Assembly: GCA_016212295.1 (NCBI GenBank)
Contig: JACRGO010000150.1
Coordinates: 1 to 13,278 of the forward strand
Length of the DNA stretch: 13,278 nucleotides
From: Nitrospinota bacterium
GTDB lineage: Bacteria; Nitrospinota; Nitrospinia; JACRGO01
Reading direction: 5' to 3'
Within the stretch, counting starts at the first letter, position 1. Each line of letters begins with the position of its first letter. The position numbers and the translations under genes are program-made. Positions 2,860 to 7,967 of the stretch are shown here, one piece after another. The notes under the pieces were generated by a model that was not told where the DNA came from, did not search any database, and saw only the letters and a program-made list of their open reading frames with translations.

Positions 2860-3426
2860 GTGAGGATAAAAAACATCTTGTATTTGGCTTTATTTTTTAT
2901 GTTTTCGTTGTTGTGCGCGTCCCCGGGTTTCGCGGAAGAAGCGGGGGGCGGCTCAGGACTGGGGTATGGCCTGGTGTTCAGCATCGCGACTCTTTTCATA
3001 GGCGGGGTAGGGGTTTCCCAGATGAAATACAGGGATAAAACCATCCTTATCTTTTTTGCCATTATAGGCTCCGGAACATATCCCTCCGTCAATGCCTATA
3101 TGGCGAATATGTCGCTGATTCCAAAGAACACGGTCACCATAACGGCTTCCCGGTACAATTTTGAAGTGCAGGGGGAGGCCAAGGTGGGGGAGCCGACCAA
3201 GGTCATGGCGGCGGCGACGGATGTGACCCATGCCGCGTTCATTAAGGAGTTGGGGGTAAACCTGGCGTGCTTGCCCGGCAAAGGAGGCACAAAGGGAAGA
3301 GACAACTTCAGGATTATTGTTCCACAGCAAGCGGGCACTTATAAGATTAAATGCGTTGAATATTGCGGCGAGCTTCACGGCAACATGAGCGTGGATATGG
3401 CTGGCGAATTTGTCGTCAAACCCTAA
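2860..3426 (+). CDS. Heme-copper oxidase subunit II with CuA centre (COX2a)
   Basis: A 188-residue electron-entry subunit that would take electrons from a soluble donor at the outer membrane face and pass them to subunit I. It starts at GTG 2860, chosen because GGGAGGA lies seven bases upstream. Residues 1-25 form a signal peptide ending GFA, followed by two membrane segments (about 35-53 and 60-80), so the mature protein has the two-helix layout of classic subunit II. The periplasmic cupredoxin domain keeps every CuA ligand: His124 (DVTHAAF), Cys165, Glu167, Cys169, His173 and Met176 in CVEYCGELHGNM. It is the first gene of a six-gene operon and lies 26 bases before COX1a, whose ribosome site GGAGGTGA falls in the gap. 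A second CuA subunit closes the same operon. Family assignment is secure; the electron donor is unknown and no cytochrome c gene is present. Confidence 0.92.
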   Translation: MRIKNILYLALFFMFSLLCASPGFAEEAGGGSGLGYGLVFSIATLFIGGVGVSQMKYRDKTILIFFAIIGSGTYPSVNAYMANMSLIPKNTVTITASRYNFEVQGEAKVGEPTKVMAAATDVTHAAFIKELGVNLACLPGKGGTKGRDNFRIIVPQQAGTYKIKCVEYCGELHGNMSVDMAGEFVVKP

Positions 3427-3452
3427 TAATTAAGTTTTCTTGGAGGTGAGAA

Positions 3453-5069
3453 ATGGGAGGATACGTAGAATCAGCGGTCTGGTTGGCGTACGGGCCAATG
3501 GCGCTGGTATTTTTTCTTTCGCTGGTTGCGGCTTTCTATTACAAACCAAAATGGGTGGGCGATCCCTCGGAATTCAGGGTCTGCTCCATCACTGGAATGA
3601 AAGTCCACATACCGGCAGGTTCTTTGATAAAGGCTAACTTGTGGATGGCCTTTTTGTTTTTAGCGCTCGGCGGCGTCATGGCCTTCGGGGTCGCTTTCAC
3701 ACGGTGGCCGGTGGTGCATCTGTTGCCGGACACCCTTTTTTACAGAGCACTGACCATGCACGGTTTGGCCATGCTTGTCTTTTGGATTGTCTGGTTTGAA
3801 GTTGCGCTGATGTATTTTACCATCACGAGCATAATAGGGGCCAGGCTGGCGGCCATAAGGACGGCTTGGATAGCGTTCGGCTTGATGCTCGGCGGGTCCC
3901 TTGTGGTAGTTTTGACGGTGTTGACCGGAAACGCGGACATCATGTTCACTTCATATCCGCCGTTGATGGCCCACCAGTGGTACTACTGGGGCATTCTTGT
4001 ATTCGCGGTCGGGGCGTTCTTTGCCTGCGCCGTTTATTACGTGACAATGGCCGTTGCCTTCAGGGAAAAAGTTATTACCGGCTCATTGCCCCTGGGAGTT
4101 TATGGCATGTCCGCGGGGGTCACTATCACCCTTTTGACCCTGTTCCACGGGGCGGTTTTTTATTTTCCGACGTGGCTATGGTCCATGGGTCTGTTTCAGA
4201 ACATTGACGTGGTTATTTACAGGCTTATTTTCTGGGCCTTCGGCCACTCCTCGCAGCAGATCAATGTATGCATGATGATCGCCTGCTGGTATATGGTCGG
4301 CACCCTTTCAATAGGCTCCAAGCCGCTCAATGAAAAGCTCTGCCGCACGGCTTATGTGCTGTACATTCTGTTTATATGCATCGCTTCCGAGCACCACCTC
4401 CTGGTGGATCCGGCAATCAGCCCGGCCCACAAGGCGTTCAACACCGGATATTTCATGCACATGGCGGTCCTGGCCAGCATGATTCACGCCCTGGCGGTCC
4501 CGGCTTCCTACGAAATTGCGCTCAGGAAAAAGGGGTATACCCAAGGGCTTTTTGAATGGTTGAAAAAAGCGCCGTGGTCGAATCCCGCCTTTTCCGCGTC
4601 GTGCCTCTCGATCGTTGGTTTCGGCTGGGTCGGCGGCATAACCGGCGTTACCTTCGGGACCGAGCAATTGAATATCATATCCCATAACACATGGAGGATG
4701 ACCGGGCACTTCCACGGGACCGTGGTGGCCGGGACTAGCCTTGCCTTCATGTCCATGACCTACTACATGATTCCAATAGCCCTTAAAAAGGAAATCGCCT
4801 TCCCAAGCTTGGCGAAAATACAGCCGTGGCTTTTCGGCCCCGGGGTTATCCTTTTTGCCGTCACCATGATGTTCATAGGCGGGTTCGGCATTCCAAGGCG
4901 CCATTGGGATATAACCTTTTCAGAGGCGGCCTTCAGCTTCAGCTTCAACCCTATCGTTTCCGTTGGGTTCATAATCTGCGCCATCGGATGGACCATGGCA
5001 ATAATCGGGGGCTTGTCCTTCGTTGTTATCGCCATAGGATCCTTGCTTAACGATAAGGAAGTCGAGTAA
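3453..5069 (+). CDS. Heme-copper oxidoreductase subunit I lacking the active-site Tyr (COX1a)
   Basis: A 538-residue polytopic catalytic subunit, with about 13 predicted helices including one extra at the N-terminus (9-30). All six histidines expected of subunit I are present: His103 (low-spin heme, in LTMHG), His265, His314 and His315 (CuB; the pair is in SEHHLLVDP), His419 (proximal ligand of the high-spin heme) and His421 (low-spin heme) in HNTWRMTGHFH. The YPPL turn at 168-171 and the HHxxxDP form resemble ba3-type (B-family) enzymes. The odd feature is helix VI: HPxVY of oxygen reductases is replaced by HSSQQ, so Gln269 stands where the cross-linked tyrosine should be. As I recall, NO-reducing members of the superfamily also lack that tyrosine, so NO reduction is possible but unproven. 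A strong ribosome site GGAGGTGA precedes the ATG. It is followed 28 bases later by a second subunit I homologue. Confidence 0.9.
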   Translation: MGGYVESAVWLAYGPMALVFFLSLVAAFYYKPKWVGDPSEFRVCSITGMKVHIPAGSLIKANLWMAFLFLALGGVMAFGVAFTRWPVVHLLPDTLFYRALTMHGLAMLVFWIVWFEVALMYFTITSIIGARLAAIRTAWIAFGLMLGGSLVVVLTVLTGNADIMFTSYPPLMAHQWYYWGILVFAVGAFFACAVYYVTMAVAFREKVITGSLPLGVYGMSAGVTITLLTLFHGAVFYFPTWLWSMGLFQNIDVVIYRLIFWAFGHSSQQINVCMMIACWYMVGTLSIGSKPLNEKLCRTAYVLYILFICIASEHHLLVDPAISPAHKAFNTGYFMHMAVLASMIHALAVPASYEIALRKKGYTQGLFEWLKKAPWSNPAFSASCLSIVGFGWVGGITGVTFGTEQLNIISHNTWRMTGHFHGTVVAGTSLAFMSMTYYMIPIALKKEIAFPSLAKIQPWLFGPGVILFAVTMMFIGGFGIPRRHWDITFSEAAFSFSFNPIVSVGFIICAIGWTMAIIGGLSFVVIAIGSLLNDKEVE

Positions 5070-5097
5070 AAAAAATTTAATCAAGGAGGTGTAAGAA

Positions 5098-6543
5098 ATG
5101 CCTGTAGATAAACCACCATATAATGAAAAGACGGTGCTTAGGATTTTGACCTGGGCCGTCTCGTTTTTTGTTATCGGGACCTTTATCGGCGTGATAGGCC
5201 GGATAGGGATCTCGGTTCCCGGGTTCATAGATAATATCACCTTTTACAGGATAGTGACCCACCATCCCTTAATATTGGTCGTGGGATGGGCGTCGCTGGC
5301 GGTCATGGGGATAGTGCATTATTCTATCCCCAAGATATCAGGGAAGCCGATTTACAGCGAGATCACCGGCAGCGCGACGATGTGGTTGACCATAACTTCC
5401 ACTATCATGTTGATAATGGGCGTTATCCCGGGTTTGAACGGGTCCACGGCGCGTTATTCCGCGTTGCCGCCTTTGTTTCACCCCTTTTTCCCGACCATGC
5501 TGTCGCTGTGTATCGCCTTGACGGCGGTAATTTTCTACGGCGGGAATATTTTGAAGACCTTTCTGACAATCGCCGAGGGTGACAAGCCGCCGCATACCAG
5601 CGCATGGTATTTCGTCATGTCCGCTGTACTTGGGACCCTGTTTCTCGGCATGGCGGGCGTTCCGCTTCTTTTGCAGTCCCTTGCCGGACTCTTCCAGGTT
5701 GACGGACTGGATTACGTATACGCGCTTGATCCGCTGGTGAACAAGCACCTGATCTGGTGGGGTCTCCATTCCTATGTGAACCAGATGATAAACATAGGCG
5801 TTCTCGGCATGTGCTACGTGGCCATTCCCATTAACGTAAAGAAGGGGATTTACAGCGAAAAAGGGGCCACGTGGGGTCTTTTCCTTTACATCATCGTGAA
5901 TAACATGGCATATTTCCACCACATGATGATGGACCCGATTCCAATGTGGCAGAAGGTAGTCGGACAGGTATCCACGTGGTTTCTTGGCTTGACCACCGCT
6001 CTCTCACTTTTCAACCTGCTGAAGACCGCTTCAGGAGGCGAAAAATGGGGTGTGGCTATGAAATTTTTGGTCGGCGGGTTGATAGGGTTCATAGTGGAAG
6101 GCTGCATAGGCATTTTCCATTCCACCCTTGTGGTCAACCTGTTTGCCCATAACACGCAGGCCATCCTCGGATACATACACGCGACTTTTTATTCCTATAT
6201 CTCCATGTGCCTGCTTGGGACGATCTACACGATTATCCCTGACGTTCGAGGAGTGCCTCTTTATAGTGAGAAATTGGGAACCATTCATTTCTGGACCGCG
6301 ATATTCAACATGACGGGCATGGTCGCTGTCCTGTTGTTGGCAGGCTATTCCGGCATGCCGAGAAACGTCCAGGTGGTCGAACCCTATTTTCAGCCGCACA
6401 TGGCGGCGGCCACGGCCTTTGGCATAGGGTTGTGGGTGTCCACCGCTATCGGCGGTTACAACCTGATTATGTCCGCTTGGTATTGCCCTGAGAAGAGGGC
6501 GGCAAAGGAAGCGGCTCTGGCGGGGAGCGCCGCGGCGCACTAG
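5098..6543 (+). CDS. Second, divergent subunit I homologue with altered heme ligand (COX1b)
   Basis: A 481-residue protein with about 12 predicted helices and clear subunit I landmarks: FYRIVTHHPL (His56 aligns with the low-spin heme ligand), His224 in helix VI, the CuB pair His274-His275 (FHHMMMDP), HNT at 351-353, His361, and the C-terminal YSEKLGTIHFW...GMPRN stretch. Aligned by the HNT landmark, the proximal histidine of the high-spin heme is Tyr359 (GYIH instead of GHFH). The active-site tyrosine position after His224 is Asn228. The low-spin heme site and CuB triad therefore look intact while the high-spin heme lacks its usual ligand. The ORF is full length and carries none of the usual signs of decay, and its ribosome site AAGGAGGTG is strong. 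I infer a structural or electron-transfer partner of COX1a, or an unusual Tyr-ligated site. A separate second oxidase is the alternative. It is only distantly similar to COX1a. Confidence 0.85.
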   Translation: MPVDKPPYNEKTVLRILTWAVSFFVIGTFIGVIGRIGISVPGFIDNITFYRIVTHHPLILVVGWASLAVMGIVHYSIPKISGKPIYSEITGSATMWLTITSTIMLIMGVIPGLNGSTARYSALPPLFHPFFPTMLSLCIALTAVIFYGGNILKTFLTIAEGDKPPHTSAWYFVMSAVLGTLFLGMAGVPLLLQSLAGLFQVDGLDYVYALDPLVNKHLIWWGLHSYVNQMINIGVLGMCYVAIPINVKKGIYSEKGATWGLFLYIIVNNMAYFHHMMMDPIPMWQKVVGQVSTWFLGLTTALSLFNLLKTASGGEKWGVAMKFLVGGLIGFIVEGCIGIFHSTLVVNLFAHNTQAILGYIHATFYSYISMCLLGTIYTIIPDVRGVPLYSEKLGTIHFWTAIFNMTGMVAVLLLAGYSGMPRNVQVVEPYFQPHMAAATAFGIGLWVSTAIGGYNLIMSAWYCPEKRAAKEAALAGSAAAH

Positions 6544-6562
6544 TTGTATAACGGCATTTTTC

Positions 6563-6592
6563 CCGGGAAGGGGTTTTTAAAACCCTTCCCGG
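6563..6592 (+). promoter_or_regulatory. Intra-operon hairpin between COX1b and the 4-helix gene
   Basis: CCGGGAAGGGG and TTTT pair with AAAACCCTTCCCGG across a minimal loop; the stem is nearly perfect with one extra G. It fills the 68-base gap between genes and is not followed by a T-run. It is therefore more likely an mRNA-stability or processing element, or a partial attenuator setting subunit ratios, than a full terminator. Confidence 0.55.
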
Positions 6593-6611
6593 AAGTTTGC
6601 CTCCAGAATAA

Positions 6612-7088
6612 ATGGCGGGTTCATTGAGTCTTGAAGGAAAAGAGCAAAAGCTTGAAAGGCTTAGGCCGTATTTCATGGCGCTGGCATTTACAATAGGCCT
6701 GGGCTCCTTCATCTATCTGGCTTTTGGAATACTTTATGGCTTCGTGAACATCTGGTTTCCCGGCGAGGTGGCGGAGATTTGCGGGTATGAATTCAATGAT
6801 ACGGACTACACGGGTTATATTCATGTAGTCATCGGGTTCTTCTCGCTGGGTCTTTCGCTGATAGGAGTTTGGGGAATCAGGGATTTGGTTGTTGAAAGAA
6901 AAACCGCCAAGGCGGGAATCGCTGTCTTGGCCATGCTGGCTTATTCATGCGGGGTGGCCATGATGCCGACGTCGGAATACGCCCTTCTGGTGATAGTCGG
7001 CTTGGTTTTGCTGGTTACGAATTTTTTCAGCGGTTTTATCCTCGCTTATATTATCACCGAATTTGTTTCGGAAGGCGCGGGAGCATAA
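6612..7088 (+). CDS. Four-helix membrane protein of the heme-copper operon
   Basis: A 158-residue protein I do not recognise as a named family. It has a charged amphipathic N-terminus (EGKEQKLERLRP), then four hydrophobic segments at about 20-49, 67-89, 99-118 and 122-150. One histidine (His71) lies in the second helix, too few for a bis-His heme within the protein alone. It is encoded between COX1b and the small one-helix gene in the same orientation, so an accessory subunit or assembly factor of the complex is a fair inference. It does not show the features of subunit III. The ATG at 6612 was chosen because it gives the complete charged N-terminus; no clear Shine-Dalgarno precedes it, unlike the neighbouring subunit I and II genes, which could mean lower translation. 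The preceding hairpin may also affect its expression. An internal ATG at codon 22 is the alternative. Confidence 0.75.
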   Translation: MAGSLSLEGKEQKLERLRPYFMALAFTIGLGSFIYLAFGILYGFVNIWFPGEVAEICGYEFNDTDYTGYIHVVIGFFSLGLSLIGVWGIRDLVVERKTAKAGIAVLAMLAYSCGVAMMPTSEYALLVIVGLVLLVTNFFSGFILAYIITEFVSEGAGA

Positions 7089-7155
7089 TGATTCAGGGGC
7101 GTTGCAGGCCTTGAGAAAATAAATTATAAACCTTTTAAAGGGGGTGGAGTAAGTT

Positions 7156-7293
7156 ATGCAAAAAGATAATGACAAAGTCCATGTAGGGCAATGGTTTTAT
7201 GACCAGATTTTTCTTCTTTTTGTTCTTTGCCAACTGATTACCCTGCTTTGCTTTGATATTTGGGGTGTTTTGGATGTAATGAGCGTAAAGTAA
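7156..7293 (+). CDS. Small single-helix subunit, 45 aa (subunit IIa-like)
   Basis: This short reading frame starts MQKDNDKVHVGQWFYD and contains one strong hydrophobic segment (about 18-34), ending VMSVK. It is preceded by GGGGGTGGAG about six bases before the ATG and lies in a 249-base gap that would otherwise be empty within a tight operon. The helix contains CQLIT, and the same five residues occur in the N-terminal anchor of the COX2b protein encoded 44 bases downstream (WCQLITF). In ba3-type oxidases a tiny one-helix subunit IIa occupies the place of a missing subunit II helix, so a similar role is inferred. Whether the shared CQLIT reflects duplication or shared contacts with subunit I cannot be decided from so short a match. 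No catalytic residues are evident. Confidence 0.72.
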   Translation: MQKDNDKVHVGQWFYDQIFLLFVLCQLITLLCFDIWGVLDVMSVK

Positions 7294-7337
7294 AAATCGA
7301 AGCAAATTTATAACAACAACAAGGAGGAGGATATTAA

Positions 7338-7865
7338 ATGAGTCTTTATACCCCGGAAAAACACTGGTGGAAGCCGATGGACAGGGAAGAGATGATCTGG
7401 GTGACCATCGCCTTCATCTGGTGCCAATTAATAACATTCATAATGCCTTTTTCCCACGCCTATGGAAAGCACAATCCCCCGGCTGTGACCTCCAAGGCCA
7501 GCACAGCGGAATATGGCGCGAAGGTGGACAAATTCATCGCTGAAAACAAGACTGGAGAGGAAGCCGGCGTGGCAGTGGTTGAAGTAAAGCCGGAAGTGAA
7601 GGAAATCTACATAGTCGGAAGAAGCTACCAATGGGAGCCGGTCCTGAAACTCCAGCAAGGCAAGGAATACATCCTGCACCTTAGTTCAGGGGATTATGAG
7701 CATGGGATGTCCATACAACCCATGAACATGAACATCATGGCCCTTCCAGGTTATGATTACCACCTGAGAATAACTCCTGACCAGGCCGGCGAGTATTTTA
7801 TCATTTGCAACGAATTCTGCGGCGCCGGACACCACATGATGACCGGAAAGATTTATGTAAGCTGA
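7338..7865 (+). CDS. Second CuA subunit II, ba3-like (COX2b)
   Basis: A 175-residue subunit II with a single N-terminal membrane anchor (about 18-38, no cleavable signal) and a periplasmic cupredoxin domain. The CuA ligands are complete: His122 (YEHGMS), Cys157, Glu159, Cys161, His165 and Met168 in CNEFCGAGHHMM. The one-helix layout and CNxxCGxGH form resemble the ba3-type subunit II, unlike COX2a, which has a signal peptide plus two helices. A linker rich in Ala, Lys and Glu (about 48-88) joins anchor and domain. A good ribosome site (AAGGAGGAGGAT) lies before the ATG. It is the last gene of the operon and is followed by a rho-independent terminator. With COX2a it gives the operon two potential electron-entry ports. 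It may serve COX1b, COX1a or both; the sequence does not say. Confidence 0.92.
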   Translation: MSLYTPEKHWWKPMDREEMIWVTIAFIWCQLITFIMPFSHAYGKHNPPAVTSKASTAEYGAKVDKFIAENKTGEEAGVAVVEVKPEVKEIYIVGRSYQWEPVLKLQQGKEYILHLSSGDYEHGMSIQPMNMNIMALPGYDYHLRITPDQAGEYFIICNEFCGAGHHMMTGKIYVS

Positions 7866-7885
7866 AAATAGTTTTTTTATATTTG

Positions 7886-7926
7886 AAAACCCGCTTTGGG
7901 CGAGAACCCAAAGCGGGTTTTTTTTT
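7886..7926 (+). terminator. Rho-independent terminator of the heme-copper operon
   Basis: A perfect stem, AAAACCCGCTTTGGG (7886-7900) with its complement at 7907-7921, closes a six-base loop CGAGAA and runs into a T-tract to 7926. It begins 20 bases after the COX2b stop. Confidence 0.93.
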
Positions 7927-7967
7927 GGGGAAAAGACTTGGTTAGAGGACTATGCTTTGAACTTGGA

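Follow-up and report, generated by a model that had tools for sequence, protein, structure and literature searches.

A Nitrospinota operon that interleaves a predicted eNOR-type NO reductase with a second, divergent heme-copper module

Gene content and layout of the locus

Six genes, in the order COX2a-COX1a-COX1b-4TM-small TM-COX2b, occupy positions 2860 to 7865 of the window, by which we mean the whole 13,278-nucleotide stretch of DNA that was analysed (Table 1). A genome bin of 3.7 Mb (G000), from a little-known genus of Nitrospinia, carries the operon on its contig C98; all six genes are on the plus strand, the gaps between them are short, and Shine-Dalgarno-like sequences are found ahead of the genes. 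The one further genome examined from this genus (G001) has the same six genes in the same order, with 62 to 80% protein identity, behind the same two upstream genes, which encode a polyprenyl synthetase and a radical-SAM protein. In G001 only, COX2b is followed by genes for a diheme cytochrome c and a NapA/Fdh-like molybdenum enzyme (L028 8635-12174). As these are absent from the window, they were set aside as members of the system.

The coordinates and the Pfam COX1 and COX2 matches bear out the gene content and order given in the original prediction, which was also right to call this composition unusual. The single terminator it proposed was found after COX2b; it is strong (7885-7922), and none of 200 shuffled sequences was as stable. 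The single promoter fared less well: eight promoter-like sites were counted, against 6.8 +/- 2.3 in shuffled sequences, and no promoter stands out. A further hairpin lies in the gap between COX1b and 4TM (-28.6 kcal/mol; z -4.8; no equally stable structure in 200 shuffles); its counterpart between the same two genes of G001 has an energy of -25.0 kcal/mol. This hairpin, shared by both genomes, suggests that the transcript is processed within the operon.

The six genes fall into two modules that differ in origin and are interleaved along the operon: the first comprises COX1a, the small TM gene, and COX2b, and the second COX2a, COX1b, and 4TM. Both CuA sites are complete, as had been predicted, with the motif CVEYCGELHGNM at 165 in COX2a, CNEFCGAGHHMM at 157 in COX2b, and an upstream His in each. 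Hydropathy analysis of COX2a gave a signal-peptide-like segment followed by two TM helices. COX2a is 70% identical to its G001 counterpart and 29% identical to COX2b over 86 residues, and its relatives on plasmids are generic CoxB proteins only, at 37% identity or less. The 4TM protein has no Pfam match over cut-off and is 62% identical in G001.

Table 1. Positions of the operon features in the window, and of related genes at other loci
Feature	Position	Strand	Description
COX2a, CuA subunit II	2860..3426	+	188 aa, GTG start; PF00116 27.7 bits, TIGR02866 36.7 bits
COX1a, predicted eNOR-type subunit I	3453..5069	+	538 aa; assigned by ligand columns, eNOR-clade tree, and identity
COX1b, divergent heme-copper subunit I	5098..6543	+	481 aa; PF00115 204 bits; alignments, hhalign, and tree
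Tyr359 codon of COX1b, proximal-ligand position	6172..6174	+	TAC; TAT in G001
RNA hairpin, COX1b/4TM gap	6553..6601	+	Strong, without a T run after it; G001 has a hairpin there too
4TM protein, family unassigned	6612..7088	+	158 aa; four TM segments
Small TM protein	7156..7293	+	45 aa; homologue of the eNOR-operon small ORF ahead of COX2
COX2b, predicted eNOR-type CuA subunit II	7338..7865	+	175 aa, one anchor helix; identity to eNOR subunit II
Intrinsic terminator	7885..7927	+	16-bp stem and T run; z -5.9
Candidate clade III N2O reductase	G000:C59 = L082 2144-3967; G001:C69 = L083 3119-4942
CuB-poor COX1-fold genes	L100 5534-7012; L105 9347-10801; L107 2203-3534; L108 3916-5331; L109 8956-10410; G000:C185 17001-18353
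H-F-K eNORs	L054 7980-9665; L106 5771-7447; L110 6803-8488

The eNOR module and its relatives

COX1a matches Pfam COX1 (PF00115) at 180 bits (cut-off, 34.8) and retains every heme-copper ligand: H103 and H421 for the low-spin heme, H419 for the high-spin heme, and H265, H314, and H315 for CuB. The active-site Tyr is replaced by Gln269, four residues after CuB His265, as established by direct count, by a MAFFT genafpair alignment, and by a 44-row alignment. Gln is the residue tabulated at this position for eNOR, Asn for sNOR and bNOR, and Asp for gNOR (PMC8756737). COX1a is 41 to 61% identical to eNORs overall (41 to 47% to plasmid genes of Thermus, Thermomicrobium, and Defluviimonas), and in the 44-row tree it is nested within a 22-row eNOR clade, beside other Nitrospinota eNORs, at 100/99.

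The companion genes point the same way. COX2b, a Pfam COX2 match, shares 31 to 37% identity with the subunits II encoded in the eNOR operons whose subunits I match COX1a, and it is 54 to 56% identical to the canonical eNOR subunits II of G000 and G001. The small TM protein is homologous to the small ORF found ahead of COX2 in operons for eNOR. Subunit IIa of the B-type oxidases is likewise a single-helix small subunit adjoining subunit II (cf. PMC3128077), and the small TM protein resembles it in this layout; its sequence was compared with the eNOR small ORFs only. Given the Gln at the Tyr position, the placement of COX1a within the eNOR clade, and the matches of its two companions to their eNOR counterparts, we assign COX1a, COX2b, and the small TM protein on sequence grounds to an eNOR-type NO reductase. 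This core is very probably the NO reductase of the operon, with NO as its likely substrate by virtue of membership in the eNOR family.

The module nonetheless differs from known eNORs in several respects. Its genes stand in a permuted order and have a second heme-copper module set among them, the window contains neither CyoE nor SCO, and COX1a carries an extra N-terminal TM helix (about residues 8 to 26 by hydropathy) that other eNORs do not have. Subunit II directly upstream of subunit I is the usual eNOR order, which was not counted into the definition of an eNOR; here COX2b instead comes after COX1a, COX1b, 4TM, and the small TM gene. A second, canonical eNOR is encoded in the same genome on contig C3, in the order COX2-COX1-CyoE-SCO, with a subunit I 60% identical to COX1a, and G001 also carries a canonical eNOR.

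At 13 eNOR loci outside Nitrospinota, drawn from a 387-genome sample, COX2 is directly ahead of COX1, usually behind a small TM ORF. Five of these loci have a second COX1-fold gene, which adjoins the eNOR on the same strand in four (G245, G255, G290, and G149) and lies about 2.9 kb away in the fifth (G083). The encoded proteins are sister to the eNOR clade (100/99); they keep their heme His ligands, the proximal His among them, and do not have a complete CuB His pair. One such CuB-poor gene is present in the window's own genome, on contig C185, away from its eNORs. In a separate observation, the HxH motif reads H-F-K in three eNORs, from a Thermus plasmid, its close relative G094, and G286, so that the second low-spin heme His is replaced by Lys.

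COX1b and its tyrosine at the proximal position

COX1b matches the Pfam COX1 model at 204 bits, against the same cut-off. Its low-spin heme histidines (H56 and H361) and CuB histidines (H224, H274, and H275) are retained, so that these ligands are present in both subunits I, as was originally proposed. A reading of both as complete oxidase subunits I is wrong for COX1b, however, which is without the high-spin heme ligand: five of the six conserved heme-copper His ligands are found, and the sixth is Tyr359. Tyr359 precedes H361 by two residues and follows H351 by eight, and four MAFFT alignment modes and hhalign alike put it at the proximal-ligand position. In the proximal-His column of the 44-row alignment only the two COX1b proteins have Tyr, the remaining 42 rows all being His, and the two genomes use different codons for the Tyr (Table 1). 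Judged by its aligned residues, COX1b is thus a heme-copper homologue that departs from the ligand definition.

Profile comparison places COX1b nearer to the A-family than to eNOR (hhalign E values of 2e-20 and 1.5e-12, respectively), and it is about 24% identical to A-family oxidases. Both trees place it on the A/cbb3/cNOR side and at a distance from eNOR; its stem is long, and its exact place is unsure. COX1a and COX1b are separated by a 100/99 branch in the 44-row tree, which, together with the low identity between COX2a and COX2b, upholds the earlier view that the halves are not a tandem duplication. The second module also resembles the A-family (aa3-type) in the signal-plus-two-helix layout of COX2a, but neither the proximal His nor the active-site Tyr at CuB His +4 is found in COX1b, and the operon has no subunit III. 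At the +4 position the sequence HSYVN gives Asn228 after CuB His224 by direct count, with a gap there in three of the four alignments. Asn is the residue listed for sNOR and bNOR (PMC8756737); COX1b resembles them in that residue and differs from them in the missing proximal His. A proton-channel reading of one alignment column of COX1b was too uncertain and was dropped.

Values of dN between G000 and G001 were 0.15 for COX1b, 0.13 for COX1a, and 0.17 for flanking housekeeping genes, with synonymous sites saturated. As dN is like that of its neighbours, COX1b is not decaying, and the comparison indicates strong purifying selection. AlphaFold2 models of COX1b from 4- and 2-row alignments were uninformative (mean pLDDT, 39.6 and 37.6).

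Searches of 77 Nitrospinota genomes from outside the genus, of 387 genomes (about 310 of them from other phyla), and of two further phylum sets of 24 and 395 genomes brought up no further COX1b, and a plasmid collection gave no match above 25% identity. The DNA pattern H-[ND]-T-x4-[GA]-Y-x-H matched 22 times in the 387 genomes, with a heme-copper reading only in the two COX1b genes. A scan of the contigs of the whole collection with two exact 7-residue patterns, which says little on distant relatives, returned the sister genome only. Together these searches sample a small share of known genomes and diversity. Matches of about 136 aa in other Nitrospinota (L060 5811-6218, L061 3203-3640, and L062 4098-4502) were rejected as COX1b fragments; they are separate small proteins that resemble a short COX1/CcoN piece, with a GHAHLN motif. 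Viral contigs were scanned for further heme-copper sequences, and none was found.

The recurrence of gene order to which the original prediction looked for support therefore extends to one sister genome and to no other genome searched. The halves that it joined in one complex differ in this respect: the eNOR half occurs separately in many genomes, including this one, and so is not new, an outcome that the original prediction had itself named as refuting it and that applies to this half. The COX1b half was not found elsewhere in the genomes searched. We know of no module like COX2a-COX1b-4TM. The pairing of COX2a with COX1a gives way to COX1a with COX2b as the natural one. The earlier reading had not noticed Tyr359, the eNOR identity of COX1a, the small TM protein, and COX2b, or the extra helix of COX1a.

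A possible joint assembly and its alternatives

Our preferred reading, to which we give about an even chance, is that the operon encodes an eNOR-type NO reductase made together with the second, non-canonical heme-copper module as its partner. Electrons would enter at the CuA site of COX2b, by homology, and would pass from there to the low-spin heme of COX1a, and NO would be reduced to N2O at the COX1a high-spin heme/CuB site. COX1b would be a specialised partner in the same membrane assembly, fed by COX2a and without the standard O2 or NO reaction; most likely it would keep the low-spin heme and CuB, with the high-spin heme site lost or changed. We infer this physical association, the cofactor content, and the role of COX1b. 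The case for one assembly, which we regard as evenly balanced, is that the genes are interleaved, that their order is kept in G001, and that COX1a has gained an extra helix. Several points count against this reading: only two genomes carry the operon; a canonical eNOR is already encoded in this genome, which leaves the second in need of a reason; and the hairpin in the COX1b/4TM gap might reflect unequal production of the halves. A purely structural partner, moreover, would not need CuB ligands, and a source of NO is not evident, as no curated NirK match was found and the cytochrome-d1 matches are only weak.

The same hairpin within the transcript would also suit two independent enzymes, an eNOR and a divergent oxidase-like one, that share an operon and its regulation without forming a common complex, as would the different origins of the modules and the CuA subunit that each possesses. 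We consider this somewhat unlikely, however. The genes are interleaved and not side by side, in an order kept in both species; the eNOR set is broken up compared with every other eNOR operon examined; and COX1a has gained an N-terminal helix of the sort that a new contact would be expected to bring. Duplicated cytochrome c oxidase genes of the ordinary kind, or an artefact of assembly or sequencing, would account for the fact that Pfam and NCBIfam recognise both genes only as generic COX1. This explanation is extremely improbable, given that COX1a and COX1b fall on opposite sides of a 100/99 branch, that scores against curated oxidase models fall well short of the cut-offs, and that two separate bins share order, flanks, and the Tyr with different codons.

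A further reading gives COX1b a catalytic role of its own: a high-spin heme ligated by tyrosinate would adjoin CuB as a new class of active site, with a reaction different from that of the eNOR core, for example, the oxidation or other conversion of NO, or a peroxide reaction. All CuB and low-spin heme ligands are kept, and the only change is from the proximal His to a residue that ligates heme elsewhere, as Tyr does in catalases; the Tyr is maintained with different codons under strong purifying selection, and COX1b has its own complete CuA subunit in COX2a. Against this, the protein is known from two sequences only, and Asn in place of Tyr at His +4 removes the usual cross-link residue of O2 reductases, and we judge a catalytic COX1b unlikely. 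That a tyrosinate-heme beside an intact CuB is moreover held in one complex with the eNOR, to give two different heme-copper centres and two CuA entry ports in one membrane assembly, we regard as distinctly improbable. To our knowledge, a tyrosinate-ligated high-spin heme beside CuB would be the first in the heme-copper superfamily; a literature search, with most subscription journals outside its scope, gave no precedent for a Tyr proximal ligand or for a two-subunit-I enzyme.

The reading of COX1b as a partner of an eNOR has a parallel of a kind in the CuB-poor COX1-fold proteins, which likewise represent a second COX1-fold protein beside an eNOR. These, however, are the reverse of COX1b: the proximal His is kept, the CuB pair is incomplete, and they are sisters of eNOR. 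The two forms are opposite and belong to different lineages. A second COX1-fold neighbour of eNOR has thus arisen at least twice, and eNORs acquire such neighbours more than once.

A survey of Nitrospinota reported norBC and nosZ to be absent from the genomes analysed there. Both genomes considered here contain a candidate clade III lactonase-type NosZ of 607 aa, followed by a cytochrome b6-like gene, which scores 599 and 604 bits against a curated cut-off of 700. A candidate N2O reductase in both genomes would fit an N2O-producing enzyme, and so counts in favour of the eNOR reading. Annotation pipelines and the survey can therefore miss NO reduction, and possibly N2O reduction, in the phylum. 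The proximal His is invariant in all 42 other heme-copper proteins compared, including relatives in which CuB ligands have been lost, and a natural, selected Tyr at that position offers a direct route to asking what the ligand does. Tyr359 of COX1b may mark a novel type of active site or, alternatively, a novel type of partner subunit, and it also raises the question of whether heme-copper enzymes can be built as unlike pairs.
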